64,000 bases of DNA, from assembly GCA_012839805.1 (NCBI GenBank), contig DUMU01000035.1, positions 1-64,000 on the forward strand. The letters run 5' to 3'. Positions 2,062 to 9,907 of the stretch are shown here, piece by piece. The number at the start of each line of letters is the position of its first letter. Position 1 is the first letter of the stretch. The notes under the pieces were generated by a model. It was not told the DNA's origin. It saw only the letters and a list, made by a program, of their open reading frames with translations, and did no database searches. Origin of the DNA: Bacillota bacterium. Lineage in GTDB: Bacteria > Bacillota > Limnochordia > Limnochordales > DUMU01. A program made the translations under genes and the position numbers.

Positions 2062-2949
2062 ATGGAGTCGGCGACGAGCACGCCGGGTGACGATCTGGCC
2101 GCGGTGGAGCAAAGTATCGCCGCCTTACGGGGGGTTCAGTCGTGTCGTATCTTGACAACTGAATCAGGGGAGATCGCCGAGATCCACGTGGTGGCGGAAG
2201 GGCGGGCGGTTCACGAAATCATTGACGAGATGGAGGCGCTCTTCCGGGTACAGCTCGGGTACGTACCGGATCGCCAAAAGATCTCGGTGGCGCTGCTCGG
2301 CAAGGAGAAAGCGGCGGTGGAGGAGCATCGTCCGGAGTTGCACGCCTTCATGGTGCAAAAGACCAAGACAGGGGTGAGAGTGAGAGTAGAGCTACTCCAC
2401 CGCAAGACGGTCTACGTGGGCGAGGCGGACAGCGGCAGCAGTACGGGAGGAGTACTGCCGGTGTCGGCGGCGGCGACGCTCAGGGCAGTGCAGTCTATGG
2501 TCGGTCGCGGGGTGGGACTGCAACTCGATGAAGTGACCATGGTGCCGGTCGACGACGTTGTCGTCGCCATGGTCGGGGTTAGCGTTCAAAAGGAGGGAAC
2601 TGAAACTGTACTGCTGGGGGCGAGTCTGGTCCGCCACGACGAGGCGGAGGCGGTTATCCGGGCTTGCCTGGATGCGGTGAACCGGTATTTCTACGCCGTC
2701 CCCGAGGAGAGGAGGACGATGGCGACGGCAAGCAGGACGGGGGCGGTGGGGGCAGAGGGTAAGGCGGGTGCCCCAGGCGAGATCGACTTGAGCGAGGGTA
2801 TGGCGGCCCGGGCGAGGCAAATGGAAAGCACGGAGCGGCCGGGCGGGACGGCGGGGGCGGGCAGGACAGCGCGCCCTGCGGCAAGTGAGGCTGTGGCGGG
2901 TGAAGAAGCAGCAGCCGGAGCGGAGGTGGACCAGCTTCGGGACGAATGA
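2062..2949 (+). CDS. Conserved hypothetical protein (two domain-like halves, low-complexity C-terminal tail)
   Basis: 295 aa ORF with GGGGGT Shine-Dalgarno; pattern VQSCRILTTESGEIAEIHVVAEG...ISVALLGKE followed by TVYVGEAD...AATLRAVQSMVG...VVVAMVGVSV...LLGASLVRHDEAEAVIRACLDAVNR. Confidence 0.7.
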   Translation: MESATSTPGDDLAAVEQSIAALRGVQSCRILTTESGEIAEIHVVAEGRAVHEIIDEMEALFRVQLGYVPDRQKISVALLGKEKAAVEEHRPELHAFMVQKTKTGVRVRVELLHRKTVYVGEADSGSSTGGVLPVSAAATLRAVQSMVGRGVGLQLDEVTMVPVDDVVVAMVGVSVQKEGTETVLLGASLVRHDEAEAVIRACLDAVNRYFYAVPEERRTMATASRTGAVGAEGKAGAPGEIDLSEGMAARARQMESTERPGGTAGAGRTARPAASEAVAGEEAAAGAEVDQLRDE

Positions 2950-3290
2950 GCCCAGCGTCCGCTCGAGGCACAGCAAATAGGGCGGCAGGATGGCAGGACG
3001 GCGACAGGGCGCTCGGTAACGGGCGAAACGCAATCGGCGCTAAGGACCTTGCCAACGCGAGCCTTCAGACTAAAGCTCGAAATCCAGTTCATAAAGCAGA
3101 TACATAGAGGTGAAATAAGGCACAGGATGACACGGGGATAATCCCTGAGCATCCGTTGGTGATTGGATAAGGGTAAGATTTGCCGGAGGAAGGAGAAGGC
3201 TTGTCAGCAGCGTGCAACCCGGAGCGTAGCGGAGTTCGCGCGGGTCTTGTGCAGACAAGACGCGACGGCTCACTCTGGGGGGTTACTTCC

Positions 3291-3371
3291 GTGAAGGCTC
3301 GCTTGCTGACGATTCTCTTGGCTCTTCTCAGCCTGGCCCTGCTTGGTGCTGATATCACTTGGGAGTACTAA
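3291..3371 (+). CDS. Putative 26-aa signal-peptide-like small protein VKARLLTILLALLSLALLGADITWEY
   Basis: GTG start preceded by GGGGGG about 8 nt upstream; basic N-terminus, hydrophobic core, short polar tail; immediately upstream of HD-GYP gene. Confidence 0.45.
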   Translation: MKARLLTILLALLSLALLGADITWEY

Positions 3372-3426
3372 GCCGGAGCAATTACTAAGCCTGATCCTTC
3401 CCCGGCTCTGCCAGGAGATGGGTTAC

Positions 3427-4830
3427 ATGGGACCTTTGATGCGCAGGCCGCGGCCGCACTCCAAACGGGTGTGGACTTATATCGCATTTATCGTGATCCT
3501 CGCAGGGGCAGTCGTAATATCGCTGCCTCCGACGAAGGTTCGTCTGCCTCCTGTTGACCTAGCAATTCTAACAATACTCTACATTATAAGCGAGATTATC
3601 GCTGTCAGGATGCCAAGAATCGGTGCGATTTCTCCTAGCATTGTGATACGCTTACCTTTAGTTACCATAATGCCCGGAAGAGAGTCCGTTGTTCTTGTTG
3701 GTACAGCCATGATGTGTTCTAAGCTGATGCGCGGGCAACCTATAGAAACCATAGTGTTTAATGGGGCTGTTGTCTCTATTGCTTCTGCTACATGTGTTAC
3801 CATCATGCATTGGGCTGGGTTTGGCACGTCATTCGTATATCCCCAGGCGGTACCTGCATTCATAATGGCGACCACGCTCAATATGCTCGTCAACGTCGTA
3901 TTGGTCGATGTAGTAATAGTTCTGGACAACCCTGGAAGGATCCAAGAGGTGTGGCGGAGCACCTTACGGTCGGTTCTGCCGGCATACTTGGCGATGGTTC
4001 CTCTAGCGCTGCTCGCAATCTTGGTTTATCAGTCGCCGGCTGGCATCGTTGGCATCATACTTTTCACATTCCCTCTGATTCTGGCACATTTATTCCTTTC
4101 CGTTTGGGTACAATTGAAGGAATCACATTTAGAGACAGTCGAGGCGTTGGCGGCTGCGCTGGAAGCCAAGGACAGCTATTCGAGGGGCCATTCTGACCGC
4201 GTAGGGGAGCTTGCGAAGCGAACGGCCCAGGTGATGCGGTTTCGGGCAAGCATGGTTGAAGAGGTCGAGAACGGCGGGCGGCTTCATGACATCGGCAAGA
4301 TAGGCGTTCCGGACCTTGTCCTGAAGAAGCCCAGTCCGCTTACACCCGAAGAACTTGAAACTATGCGACGGCATGTGGAAATCGGGGCCGAGATAGTAAA
4401 GCCTTTGTCGTTCTTGCGGTCGGTGACTGGTATGGTTAGGTACCATCACGAGTGGTTTGGCGGGGGCGGGTATCCGGGGGAAATGGAAGGGACGAGTATC
4501 CCACTAGGAGCAAGGGTGCTCGCTGTTTGCGATGCTTGGGATGCCATGACGTCGAACCGGATCTACCGGCGCGCTATGGAGCCCCTGGAGGCCTGGCGCA
4601 GATTGGTGGCGGGGGCCGGGACCCAGTTCGATCCGGAAGTGGTGTCGGCTTTCAAAAAGGTAATCGCGGCTGATAAGCTGGTACCGTTAGATGTACTTGA
4701 GGCAGAAGAAGTCCGGATACGGGAGGAGCGCGAACGTGAGAGCCGGGAAGAGATGATGGCCACGGACCAGCTGGGCCAGGGGTTGATGGAGGCAGCAGCA
4801 GGGCAGGAGGAGCGGGGTGAGGGCGTTTGA
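3427..4830 (+). CDS. Membrane-anchored HD-GYP domain protein (putative c-di-GMP phosphodiesterase)
   Basis: N-terminal multi-TM region; C-terminal HDIGKIGVPD ... HHEWFGGGGYPGEMEGTSIPLGARVLAVCDAWDAMTSNRIYR. Start chosen at ATG 3427 with AGGAG 9 nt upstream; ORF frame opens at 3343. Confidence 0.9.
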   Translation: MGPLMRRPRPHSKRVWTYIAFIVILAGAVVISLPPTKVRLPPVDLAILTILYIISEIIAVRMPRIGAISPSIVIRLPLVTIMPGRESVVLVGTAMMCSKLMRGQPIETIVFNGAVVSIASATCVTIMHWAGFGTSFVYPQAVPAFIMATTLNMLVNVVLVDVVIVLDNPGRIQEVWRSTLRSVLPAYLAMVPLALLAILVYQSPAGIVGIILFTFPLILAHLFLSVWVQLKESHLETVEALAAALEAKDSYSRGHSDRVGELAKRTAQVMRFRASMVEEVENGGRLHDIGKIGVPDLVLKKPSPLTPEELETMRRHVEIGAEIVKPLSFLRSVTGMVRYHHEWFGGGGYPGEMEGTSIPLGARVLAVCDAWDAMTSNRIYRRAMEPLEAWRRLVAGAGTQFDPEVVSAFKKVIAADKLVPLDVLEAEEVRIREERERESREEMMATDQLGQGLMEAAAGQEERGEGV

Positions 4831-5411
4831 TACTGGAAGCGCTGGTGCTGGGGCTGTTGATCGGGACCTGGCGAGGAGGGCGGTTGGCCAATCTGGCGGA
4901 AGTAAGATGGCGCTGGCCGCTTCTTTTTGTTTTTGCCATGCTCTGGCAACGGATCCCCTTCCTGATGGTCCGGGAATGGCCGGCACTCCAGCCGGCGGTG
5001 GTCTGGCTGTATCTTTCCTCCTACGCTCTCCTGGCAGTGGCCGTTGGGCTGAACTGGGATGATCCGGCCTTCCGGTGGATCGGGCTGGGCCTTTTGCTGA
5101 ACTTCCTGGTAATCGCACTGAACGGCGGCCGCATGCCGGTATGGTCGACCGCGGTTGACATAGCCCGGCTGAAGGTGAACCTGACTCCTGCCGGGGCGGC
5201 CACTTCTCCCCACACTTTAATGACCGAGGCGACGAGGCTGAAATTCCTGGGCGACGTTTTGCCACTTCCCCCGCCTTACCCGCGCCCGCGGGTCCTCAGC
5301 ATAGGCGATGTGTTCCTGGCCGTTGGGATTGCTTTTCTCCTGATCAGGGGCATGGGGACGCGGAGAGAGCGCCGGACCGAAGCCAGACCCGAGACCGCCG
5401 GGACGGCCTGA
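4827..5411 (+). CDS. DUF5317 family membrane protein
   Basis: Hydrophobic 194 aa ORF overlapping upstream stop; FLVIALNGGRMPVW ... LKFLGDVLPLP...SIGDVFLAVGIAFLL. Confidence 0.75.
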   Translation: MILEALVLGLLIGTWRGGRLANLAEVRWRWPLLFVFAMLWQRIPFLMVREWPALQPAVVWLYLSSYALLAVAVGLNWDDPAFRWIGLGLLLNFLVIALNGGRMPVWSTAVDIARLKVNLTPAGAATSPHTLMTEATRLKFLGDVLPLPPPYPRPRVLSIGDVFLAVGIAFLLIRGMGTRRERRTEARPETAGTA

Positions 5412-5618: not shown

Positions 5619-8600
5619 ATGTTCGCGCTGTTACAGCGCTTGTTTCACCGGGGCAACGAGGCTGAGATCGAACGCCTGCGGGAGCAGGTAGCGGCCATCA
5701 ACGCGCTCGAGCCCGAGATGATGGGCAAAAGCGATGACGAGTTGGCGGCGATGACGGCCGGGTTTCGCCAGCGCCTGGCGAACGGAGCAACCCTGGACGA
5801 CCTCCTTCCGGAGGCGTTTGCGGTGGTGCGGGAGGCGAGCCGGCGGGTACTCGGGCAACGGCATTTCGACGTCCAGTTGATGGGTGGCATCGTGTTACAC
5901 GAGGGCCGGATCGCAGAGATGAAGACGGGCGAAGGAAAGACGCTGGCGGCCACCGCACCGGCCTATCTCAACGCGCTCACCGGGCGGGGGGTGCACATCG
6001 TTACCGTCAACGATTACCTCGCCAAGCGTGACGCGGAGTGGATGGGCGCGATCTACCGCTTTTTGGGACTCACGGTAGGGGTCATAGTCCATGAGAAGAA
6101 TTACCGGGAGCGCCAAGAAGCATATCGTGCGGACATAACCTACGGAACTAACAATGAGTTCGGGTTTGACTATTTGCGCGACAACATGGCGCTACACCCG
6201 GAGCATCTCGTTCAACGCGAGTTGAATTACGCCATCATCGACGAGGTAGACTCGATCCTCATCGACGAAGCTCGGACCCCGCTCATCATCAGCGGAATGG
6301 CCGAAGAGTCGACGCAGCTTTACTATGACGTGGCGAAGTTCATCCGGACGTTGACCCCCGAAGAAGATTACACGGTAGATGAAAAGGCTCGGACGGCGGC
6401 ATTGACCGAAGCCGGGGTGGCCAAGGCAGAGAAGTACTTCGGTGTAGAAAACCTCTACGACGAAAGCAACATGCGCCTCTCCCACCATATCCTGGCCGGC
6501 TTGAAGGCGCACACACTCTTCAAGCGAGACCGGGATTACGTGGTCAAGGACGGCGAGGTGATCATCGTCGACGAGTTCACCGGCCGCCTGATGTTCGGGC
6601 GCCGCTACTCGGATGGTATCCACCAGGCCATCGAGGCTAAAGAGGGCGTCCGCATCCAGCGAGAGAGCCAGACCCTGGCTACCATCACCTTCCAGAATTA
6701 CTTCCGCATGTACAAGAAGATCGCGGGCATGACCGGCACGGCCAAGACGGAAGAAGAAGAATTCCGCAAGATCTACGGCATGGATGTGGTGGTGATACCC
6801 ACCAACAAACCCATGATCCGGACCGACTACCCGGACCTGGTCTTCCGGACCGAGCGGGCCAAGTGGAACGCCGTCGTGGACGAGATCGAGGAGTTGTACA
6901 AGCAAGGTCGCCCCGTTCTCGTGGGCACCATCTCCATCGAGCGGTCGGAGCATCTCAGTGACATGCTGCGGCGCCGCAACATCCCGCACCAGGTGCTGAA
7001 TGCGAAGTACCACGAGCGGGAGGCGGAGATCATCGCCCAGGCGGGACGGCCGGGCATGGTGACCATCGCCACCAACATGGCCGGAAGAGGCACGGACATC
7101 CTGCTTGGTGGTAATCCGGAATACAAGGCCAAAGAGCGCCTTCGCCAGAAGGGTTATAGCCCCGAGGAAGTTCGACTGGCGAGTGAACGCCGGGTCGACG
7201 AGACCGGCTTGACCGACCGGGTGAAGCAAGCCCGCCGCCTTTTCCAGGAGTTCCTCGAGGAAGAGGCCCGGGCGATGGAAGAGGAACACGCCCGGGTGGT
7301 GCAGCTCGGGGGCTTGCACATCATCGGTACGGAGCGGCACGAAAGCCGCCGCATCGACAACCAGCTCCGGGGCCGGTCGGGCCGGCAGGGCGATCCGGGT
7401 TCGTCCCGGTTCTACGTGTCGCTGGAAGACGATCTGATGCGCCTGTTCGGGTCGGCCAGGATCGCCGGGCTGATGGACCGGCTGGGTTGGGATGAAAACG
7501 TGCCGATCGAAGACCGGCGGGTTACGCGAGCCATCGAAAACGCGCAAAAGAAAGTGGAAGCCCGCAACTTTGAATTGCGCAAACAGGTACTCGAGTATGA
7601 CGAAGTAATGAACCAGCAGCGGCAGGCGATCTACGCCTGGCGCCGGCGGATCCTCCTCGGAGAGAGCCAGGAGGAACGGGTGGGACAGATCCTGAAGGAC
7701 GTGGCGGCAAGCTTCGTGGAGTCATATGCGCCCGAGAAGGTGCTGCCGGAGGAGTGGGATCTCGTTTCGCTGGTTCAGCGGCTGGGCGAGCTGGTCGGGC
7801 GCCCGCTCTCCTTCCGTGCTGATGACCTGCCCCGGCGCCGGCCGGAGGACCGGGCGCAAGTGCTGGCCCGGGTGGAGGAAGAGCTCAAACGGCTTTACCG
7901 GGAGCGCGAACAGGAACTGGGGCCGGAAACTCTGCGTGAGATCGAGCGCTTGATCCTGCTCCGGGTGATCGATGCCCAGTGGATGCAGCACCTGCGGGAC
8001 ATGGACGACCTGCGGGAAGGGATCGGTCTGAGGGCCTACGGGCAGCAGAACCCGCTGGTGGAGTACCGCCTGGAGGCCTTCCAGATGTTCCGGGCCATGA
8101 TGGAGCGGATAAACGAGGAGACGCTGCGCTATCTCTTCCGCGTCCAGGTGGCGGTTGCTCCCGCCGGCACCGGTCTGGGAGCGGACGGGCGGCCCGCGGC
8201 CGCGGCCGTTTCAGGCCCGAGGGTGGCCGGTGACGGCCGCGGCCGGACCGGTGCTACGGCGGGCCGGGGGCCGGCGGGGGCGGCAGCAGCGGCGCCGGGG
8301 ACGGGGCTCCTGGCCCGGGCCACGTACTCAGGAGGCGGTCCGCCACCCTTTGCTCTGCCCGGAGCCGGTAGCGCAAGCGGGAGCCAGGACGGCGCCGGCC
8401 GGGGTGGTCGAGGCACTGGAGCAGGGGCGGCAGGTCCGGCGGGCGGTCGTCTGGAGCCGCGCCGGGTGCAAAAGGTGGGCCGCAACGACCCCTGTCCTTG
8501 CGGCAGCGGGCTAAAGTACAAGAAATGCCACGGGCGGTATGGCGATGGGGCGCCCGACATAGGCGGCGGCGGCCGCGGAACCGGTGCTGCCGGGGCTTGA
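5619..8600 (+). CDS. secA: Preprotein translocase ATPase SecA
   Basis: [82 protein letters not shown]-terminal zinc motif [20 protein letters not shown]. Confidence 0.99.
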
Positions 8601-8643
8601 GAGGAACGGCCGGCCAAGCAACGGTCGAAAAGGTGATGGGGGG

Positions 8644-9907
8644 ATGACTATGGTCACTGAACTCACCCTGACTCCACTCAAGGAGAAACTGGGCGAGCTT
8701 TTGCGGCGCCTGAACGAAATGAGGGTTTACCTTTGACGTCGATCACGGCAAGGCACGCCTGGCCGAGCTAGAGAACATCATGGCCGCGCCCGGCTTCTGG
8801 CAGGACCGGGAGCGGGCAAGCAAGGTGATCGCCGAGGCGAGGAGCCTCAAAGGCCGGCTCCGCGCGTACGAAGAAACGAGGGAGACGGCCGACGAGGCAG
8901 AAGTGCTGCTGGAGCTGGCCGAAGAAGAATTGTCAATGGGCCGTGGCGACCAGGGCGGGCCGGGAACCCAAAGTGGTGGTAGCACGCGGAGTGACCCGGC
9001 GGTACCCGGCGCGCCGGGTGTAGATGGCCCGGCGGATACGGGGGCGGCCGGCACGACCGTGGCCGAACTGGTCGCCACGCTGGAGCGGCTTGAGCGGCAG
9101 GTAGTTCGACTGGAGTTTCAATCGTTGCTGGGTGGGGAGTATGACCCGAATAACGCCATTCTCGCCATCCACCCGGGGGCGGGAGGCACCGAGTCGATGG
9201 ACTGGGCGGAGATGCTCCTGAGGATGTACACGCGGTGGGCCGAGCGACGCGGGTTCACGGTAGAACTGCTTGACCTCTTGCCCGGTGACGAGGCGGGCGT
9301 GAAGAGTGCCACTCTCCAGGTGAACGGCGAGTATGCGTACGGATACCTGAAGGCGGAGCGGGGAGTTCACCGGCTGGTACGCATCTCACCTTTCGACGCG
9401 GCAGGGCGCAGGCACACCTCGTTCGCCTCGGTGGACGTCTGGCCGGTGGTGGAGAACGATACCGACATCGAGATAAAGCCGGAGGAGATCCGGATAGATA
9501 CCTACCGGGCGAGCGGGGCGGGCGGCCAGTACGTAAACAAGACCGAGTCGGCGGTCCGCATCACCCACCTTCCCACCGGGATCGTGGTGCAGTGCCAGAA
9601 CGAGCGGTCGCAGCACGCGAACCGGGAGACGGCCATGCGGATGCTGAAAGCAAGGCTCTTGCAGCGGCGGCTCGAGGAACAGCAGGAGAAACTGGAGCAG
9701 ATCCGGGGCGAGCACGGTGAAATCGCCTGGGGATACCAGATCCGTTCTTACGTCTTCTGCCCGTATACGATGGTGAAGGATCACCGCACAGGAGTAGAGA
9801 CCTCCAACGTGCAAGCGGTGATGGACGGCGAGATCGACGAGTTCATCGAAGCGTTCTTGCGCCAGGAAGCGGCATCGGCCGGCGCCCGGAAAGAGGCACG
9901 GGCGTGA
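8644..9907 (+). CDS. prfB: Peptide chain release factor 2, programmed +1 frameshift at CTT TGA C (8731-8737)
   Basis: Zero frame 8644-8733 ([30 protein letters not shown]) ends at TGA 8734-8736; +1 frame from 8735 continues [24 protein letters not shown]... into the 8780 ORF with GAGGQ and [16 protein letters not shown]. Confidence 0.97.

Follow-up and report, generated by a model that had tools for sequence, protein, structure and literature searches.

In agr and ComX pherotypes, ligand and receptor are exchanged together. S-components, for their part, hold small ligands in a pocket that is open to the outside, and in CbiM/NikM systems S-components have small membrane partners. For most membrane HD-GYP and GGDEF enzymes we know of no extracellular signal, and to our knowledge no peptide partner is known for MASE9-HD-GYP phosphodiesterases. 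Our search, confined to the open-access literature, turned up no paper that connects a peptide with HD-GYP or that treats MASE9 together with HD-GYP.

Here, we analyze a 64-kb stretch of Bacillota DNA, referred to as a whole as the window, in which a 26-codon ORF directly precedes a MASE9-HD-GYP gene. The ORF belongs to a previously unnamed family of micropeptides of 24–29 residues, and the peptide/MASE9-HD-GYP pair recurs at well over 100 bacterial loci. In the way they co-vary, the tail of the peptide and the sensor domain of its neighbor resemble a signal with its receptor, suggesting that bacteria may communicate by peptides in a new way. We consider it fairly probable that the product of the ORF is the ligand in a peptide–receptor pair, that is, an exported peptide whose tail is a specific ligand of MASE9 and controls c-di-GMP hydrolysis, with pherotypes resembling those of agr and ComX.

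The micropeptide gene and its neighborhood

The micropeptide ORF consists of 26 codons plus TAA (3291..3371, + strand; VKARLLTILLALLSLALLGADITWEY), as supported by sequence, family conservation and a coding test. An earlier note on this DNA had described its layout, and the coordinates re-read in the sequence agree: a GTG start at 3291, a Shine-Dalgarno-like GGGGGG (3277..3282, +) 8 nt before it, a TAA ending at 3371, and a gap of 55 nt between the end of the ORF and the HD-GYP gene start at 3427. The frame stays open upstream as far as a TTG at 3180; the start is placed at 3291 because conservation and the Shine-Dalgarno run point there. Position conservation and dN/dS divide the peptide into a signal-like conserved part with a basic N-terminus, a hydrophobic core and the small-residue motif LGA (3291..3350, +), and a variable tail, DITWEY (3351..3368, +), the proposed ligand, which is further delimited by its co-diversification with MASE9.

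A strict filter (Shine-Dalgarno motif, 20–33 aa, basic N-terminus, uncharged core) passes a single ORF in the 64-kb window, namely the micropeptide at 3291, and no such ORF in ten Markov-random 64-kb sequences. Moreover, when the window's own family was left out of the HMM, the window peptide still ranked first among 1526 six-frame segments (E = 0.006). The peptide is divergent, with LLGA where most relatives have LAGGA, and a genome-wide search with a profile of nine peptides from outside the class did not recover it; its family membership rests on two relatives (G001, 65% identical; G002, 56%), on its position and on the broader profile.

A codon-substitution test, which the earlier note had proposed, shows synonymous changes to dominate: 23 independent close pairs hold 102 synonymous and 62 non-synonymous codon changes, against 45 ± 5.8 synonymous ones (at most 65 in 500 shuffles) when the positions of these base changes are randomized. 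Furthermore, 97 of the 98 family members have a Shine-Dalgarno-like motif in −18..−5, and all 98 have K/R within residues 2–8. By every evolutionary test applied, the micropeptide ORF is real and translated. The earlier note had also allowed for chance, and the ORF is indeed short, near a gene start and begins with GTG; conservation across loci, the synonymous codon pattern and the held-out profile match have already refuted this alternative, to which we give next to no weight.

The gene order of the window (HPF, further genes, the 295-aa protein, the peptide, MASE9-HD-GYP, DUF5317, secA, prfB) is widely kept elsewhere, partly even in Actinomycetota MAGs. The 295-aa protein (2062..2949, +), for which a Pfam search returned no family, is a recurrent upstream neighbor: tblastn places it right before the peptide gene at ~26 distant loci, one of them in a Ca. 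Eisenbacteria MAG. The DUF5317 membrane protein (4827..5411, +; Pfam E = 5e-37) is the recurrent third member of the block: by tblastn it follows the HD-GYP gene at almost every one of the longer loci, where it often directly precedes secA, and a search of the open-access literature found no mention of it. Further along, prfB (RF2; 8584–9907) appears split between two frames, with a stop ending at 8736 and the next frame running from 8780, as expected from the known programmed frameshift of RF2.

Across the family, the peptide ORF lies 4–258 nt (median 55) upstream of the HD-GYP gene in one transcription unit, and no terminator-like site was found between the two genes. This arrangement, along with an ORF length close to that of known leader peptides, would fit a regulatory leader ORF on which translation or stalling controls HD-GYP expression, as in TnaC or ErmCL, an option that the earlier note had raised as well. 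We regard it as improbable, as no structured leader was found at 24 loci (mean folding z −0.42), the accessibility of the HD-GYP ribosome site is 0.39 vs 0.41 overall, both the stop codon and the motif-to-stop distance vary across the family, and the ORF reads as a membrane peptide whose tail co-varies with the sensor protein. No Rfam family was matched; the only listed match, to a MIAT exon, was dismissed as spurious (21.9 bits vs a gathering threshold of 75).

Distribution and pairing

The pairing of the peptide with MASE9-HD-GYP is strict. A search for relatives of the HD-GYP protein gave 17 loci, window included, with similarity over the full length into the membrane domain, and an ORF of 25–29 codons in the same layout stands upstream at all 17 of these MASE9-HD-GYP loci of the class (Limnochordia). 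The peptide occurs in none of the 56 class genomes without this MASE9-HD-GYP type, and at none of 13 loci with other, non-MASE9 HD-GYP proteins. The comparison of relatives by which the earlier note had wanted the ORF to be judged therefore went in its favor, since the ORF is kept wherever this HD-GYP type occurs. A profile of 13 peptides, run against 73 class genomes, matched exactly 17 of them (E ≤ 1e-9, one copy each), with the next match at only E = 0.04.

In a phylum sample of 399 genomes, the profile matches 81 at E ≤ 0.01. Outside the class, a MASE9-HD-GYP gene follows directly at each of the 24 best-scoring loci (24/24) and at nearly all further true matches; the ~75 further loci outside the class, mostly spread across the phylum with some in Actinomycetota, lie a median of 55 nt before MASE9-HD-GYP. 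Lower-scoring matches, considered as SecF/FliL fusions, were rejected as apparent chance matches to transmembrane segments of frames of 291–313 aa and 149–167 aa, which we take from their sequence to be SecF-like and FliL-like; a few other unrelated frames were also matched by chance.

Additionally, 38 named GTDB loci were ascertained with MASE9 alone and not with the peptide, to the same effect. The peptide is found at E ≤ 1e-3 in 32 of these 38 and in a recognizable version in 4 more; one of the remaining loci starts at a contig end, and the other (Alkaliphilus transvaalensis) has a doubtful candidate only. Hosts include Desulfosporosinus, Thermosediminibacter, Fervidicola, Thermovorax, Tepidanaerobacteraceae, Actinomycetota and Ca. 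Subteraquimicrobium/Oleimmundimicrobium MAGs. Upstream of MASE9 genes with GGDEF or other non-HD outputs, the peptide was found in 0 of 18 cases. No named family in Pfam, NCBIfam or PHROGs matches it.

Some loci depart from the common form. At the MASE9-HD-GYP genes L156 and L169, a search for an upstream peptide ORF found none, so that it is seemingly absent; L169 is a second copy in its genome, and the other copy there has the peptide. Short or doubtful versions alone occur at L150, L157–L159, L162 and L164, including 20-aa versions at L157, L162 and L164 (VKKVMRIVARLLSGGSNFMW, VKWLFNFMSLFLGRGGNYKW and VKKMVNVLTRLMGVAGVWKW) that keep the tail pattern and have little hydrophobic core. At L176, the peptide MKRFLPAIITLLTLVLAAGSHASWV precedes a MASE9-HD-GYP of 600 aa with an extra C-terminal region.

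A second family (class II) of 29–33 residues is found in Limnochordia upstream of paralogous HD-GYPs with a diverged MASE9-like domain (loci L226–L242 and L275–L281, directly upstream of the HD-GYP genes). It is present in 16 of 17 paralogue loci, with the 17th found by further search, and a profile of it matches 21 of the 73 class genomes. These peptides have a textbook secretion signal ending in ALA/VLA, then DT and 3–7 residues (e.g., VVALA followed by DTARFRWPR); the pattern of ALA/VLA, DT, A/V/I and R/K is of the canonical AxA type and signal-peptidase-like. Coupling between the class II tail and its sensor is not clear (partial r 0.32 vs 0.46 for the core). Class II supports export as the general theme.

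Regional constraint within the peptide

Selection acts unevenly along the peptide, with dN/dS at 0.39 in the N-terminus, 0.14 in the core, 0.02 in AGGA and ~0.50 in the tail (W27 apart). As dS is similar among the regions, that of the tail being equal to that of the core, this split marks a sharp boundary just after the small-residue motif: the core and the (L)AGGA motif are frozen, and the 4–8-residue tail varies. Position conservation, computed over 91 unique peptides (effective number 48), is highest at L14, L17, L19, A20, G21, G22, A23 and W27, reaching 86% for L17, 90% for A20 and 96% for G22, and class I peptides have A/S/G at the proposed −1 position.

The tail Trp (W27) is conserved to 77% across the family and some aromatic residue is nearly always present, so the tail is less open than that of classical pheromones. 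Moreover, 4–8 residues are very short for a released pheromone, which counts against the ligand reading. Cys occurs in the last nine residues of 1 of 98 family members; a truncated AgrD was ruled out, there being no conserved Cys and no AgrB.

Co-diversification of tail and sensor

Judged from sequence comparisons, the tail and the sensor diversify and swap as one unit; the tail that the earlier note had singled out, DITWEY, coincides exactly with the segment diversifying alongside the sensor domain. Among close relatives, mean identity is 84% in the HD-GYP half and 93% in the peptide core, compared with 66% in the tail and 67% in MASE9. DNA profiles give the same picture, with mostly 95–100% in the upstream DNA and peptide core, 20–70% in tail, spacer and MASE9, and 80–99% in HD-GYP. 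In several unrelated families, tail, spacer and MASE9 make up a single hypervariable block with conserved sequence on either side, and the edge of this block lies at one and the same codon in independent families, immediately behind the AGGA motif.

Comparing 57 pairs with HD-GYP identity ≥ 0.78, those with identical tails (16 pairs) have equal identities of 0.87 in MASE9 and HD-GYP, and those with different tails (41 pairs) have 0.67 in MASE9 and 0.90 in HD-GYP. Four-fold sites follow suit. Where tails differ, MASE9 is near-saturated, at 0.34 vs 0.88 in HD-GYP (L123/L166) and 0.39 vs 0.66 (L072/L104); where tails are the same, the two halves agree, at 0.91 vs 0.91 (L085/L090) and 0.61 vs 0.60 (L100/L102). 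As a control, the MASE9-GGDEF proteins of G167, G083 and G201 are 90–97% identical in the sensor and 94–97% in the output domain, with four-fold sites alike, whereas the peptide-linked MASE9 of G167 and G083 stands at 0.31 vs 0.70 in HD-GYP at these sites.

Given HD-GYP, the partial correlation between tail and MASE9 is 0.70 over 129 pairs, which share loci and are therefore not independent events; none of 500 within-cluster permutations reaches 0.70, their mean itself being 0.53 because clusters differ. The corresponding value for core and MASE9 is 0.29. Mutual information between peptide and MASE9, over 91 pairs, was not significant against the HD-GYP control. The tail physically adjoins MASE9, and linkage therefore contributes to the co-swapping. 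By analogy, such co-swapping is what one would expect if a ligand and its receptor were exchanged together.

The adjacency also invites another account, in which MASE9 diversifies for reasons unrelated to the peptide (diversifying pressure or recombination, e.g., through its use by a phage or toxin) and the tail varies as the edge of the block, much as the spacer between them does. However, tail dS equals core dS while dN differs, and the block ends at one codon, after AGGA, in independent families. This account, which we deem quite improbable, also leaves unexplained why the peptide exists and why it is absent at MASE9-GGDEF genes, whose MASE9 does not diversify.

The MASE9-HD-GYP partner and a proposed mechanism

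The candidate receptor is a protein of 467 aa (3427..4830, +; Pfam MASE9 E = 1.3e-6, HD_5 E = 2.6e-35), preceded by a Shine-Dalgarno GGAG (3414..3417, +); translation might instead begin at the in-frame ATG at 3418. Its MASE9 membrane sensor domain (3427..4113, +; Pfam match 3706–4092) scores above the curated cut-off of PF20972 (29.0 bits vs 24.3), and its HD-GYP domain (4147..4641, +; HD_5 at residues 241–405) shows HDIGK and GGGGYP motifs in translation, the latter within HHEWFGGGGYP. By family, the partner is a predicted c-di-GMP phosphodiesterase that should break down c-di-GMP; two GGDEF proteins are encoded in the window's own genome, so c-di-GMP is probably present.

AlphaFold models of MASE9 from the window (pLDDT 93.9) and from L073 have ECF-transporter S-components as their best Foldseek matches, led by TmRibU (probability 1.00; TM(target) 0.67–0.69 in the two models, 0.69 for the window; E-values modest, 0.002–0.09), with further matches to FolT, ThiT, BioY and CbiM. 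No sequence similarity between MASE9 and ECF S-components was found. With modest E-values and no sequence match, the S-component fold of MASE9 is a proposal, made here from models, and the outward pocket of the modeled domain would be a plausible seat for the short aromatic tail. In a read-through fusion model, in which stop codons were read as Gly, the MASE9 part is good and the peptide has pLDDT values of 78/58/64, with no docking readable.

The earlier note had suggested that the tail could be a secreted signal sensed by the N-terminal domain of the adjacent HD-GYP protein, and our results support this reading. In the mechanism we propose, a 24–29-residue peptide with a signal-like N-terminus and (L)AGGA would be made just before its receptor and inserted into or exported across the membrane. 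Its 4–8-residue aromatic tail (here DITWEY) would probably be freed by cleavage after the small-residue motif and might then occupy the outward-facing pocket of MASE9. Pocket occupancy may in turn alter the attached HD-GYP phosphodiesterase and hence the c-di-GMP level, a control that we infer, as we do the direction of its effect.

The main rival to this peptide-ligand reading is an uncleaved membrane micropeptide subunit, a single helix packed on MASE9 that would use its tail to plug or gate the pocket in cis, much as small accessory subunits serve ECF metal transporters, with no cell-to-cell signal. The hydrophobic core is more conserved than a mere signal peptide would be, beyond simple hydrophobicity at L17, A20 and G22 and in its dN/dS, which would suit a membrane subunit, and the strict one-to-one pairing, the interfacial Trp and the likeness of MASE9 to S-components with small membrane partners (CbiM/NikM) point the same way. 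Such a subunit does not readily account, however, for the joint exchange of tail and sensor as divergent alleles, saturated at synonymous sites, between near-identical flanks, and the canonical signal-peptidase-like site at the end of class II peptides also speaks against it; we consider it unlikely, if still deserving of attention.

Returning to the exported ligand, we tentatively entertain a further step, namely a quorum-sensing or kin-recognition system of Bacillota and some Actinomycetota, in which the pheromone receptor would itself be a c-di-GMP enzyme: its S-component-like membrane pocket, joined to HD-GYP, would sense the linear peptide made from the preceding micro-gene, and pherotypes would be exchanged as cassettes of tail plus sensor. 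The pair puts forward a candidate ligand gene for an entire class of receptors, and from it follow predictions of the peptide part and the domain that determine specificity. If true, peptide communication would be linked to c-di-GMP control without a histidine kinase. More generally, the pair shows that genes of ~25 codons, though passed over by annotation pipelines, can be old and subject to co-evolution.

Comparison with known systems

SHP/Rgg, Phr/Rap and other RRNPP systems share with this locus a tiny leader-like ORF, a linear tail of few residues and a hydrophobic signal-like part. Their receptors, however, are cytoplasmic and need peptide import, whereas here the adjacent partner is a membrane domain whose modeled fold faces outward; no RRNPP/Rgg-type TPR receptor was adjacent in the true matches inspected, the partner being MASE9-HD-GYP in every one.

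In agr (AgrBDC) and ComQXP, as here, a short peptide gene adjoins a membrane sensor gene, tail and sensor are hypervariable and exchanged together, and the output domain and peptide leader are conserved. Unlike those systems, the present loci have no gene for a processing enzyme (AgrB, ComQ), the neighbors being the 295-aa protein, MASE9-HD-GYP, DUF5317 and SecA, and unlike AgrD the peptides have no conserved Cys or cyclization residue. Moreover, the receptor is fused to an HD-GYP phosphodiesterase in place of a histidine kinase, and the tail keeps a conserved Trp.

The partner gene shares its domain architecture with MASE9 (PF20972)-HD-GYP phosphodiesterases, and in both models its MASE9 shares the fold of ECF S-components (RibU, FolT, ThiT, BioY, CbiM). 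CbiM-type S-components have small membrane partners (CbiN/NikN), of which CbiN is longer than the peptide described here. Unlike ECF S-components, MASE9 is fused to a signaling enzyme and not to a transporter.
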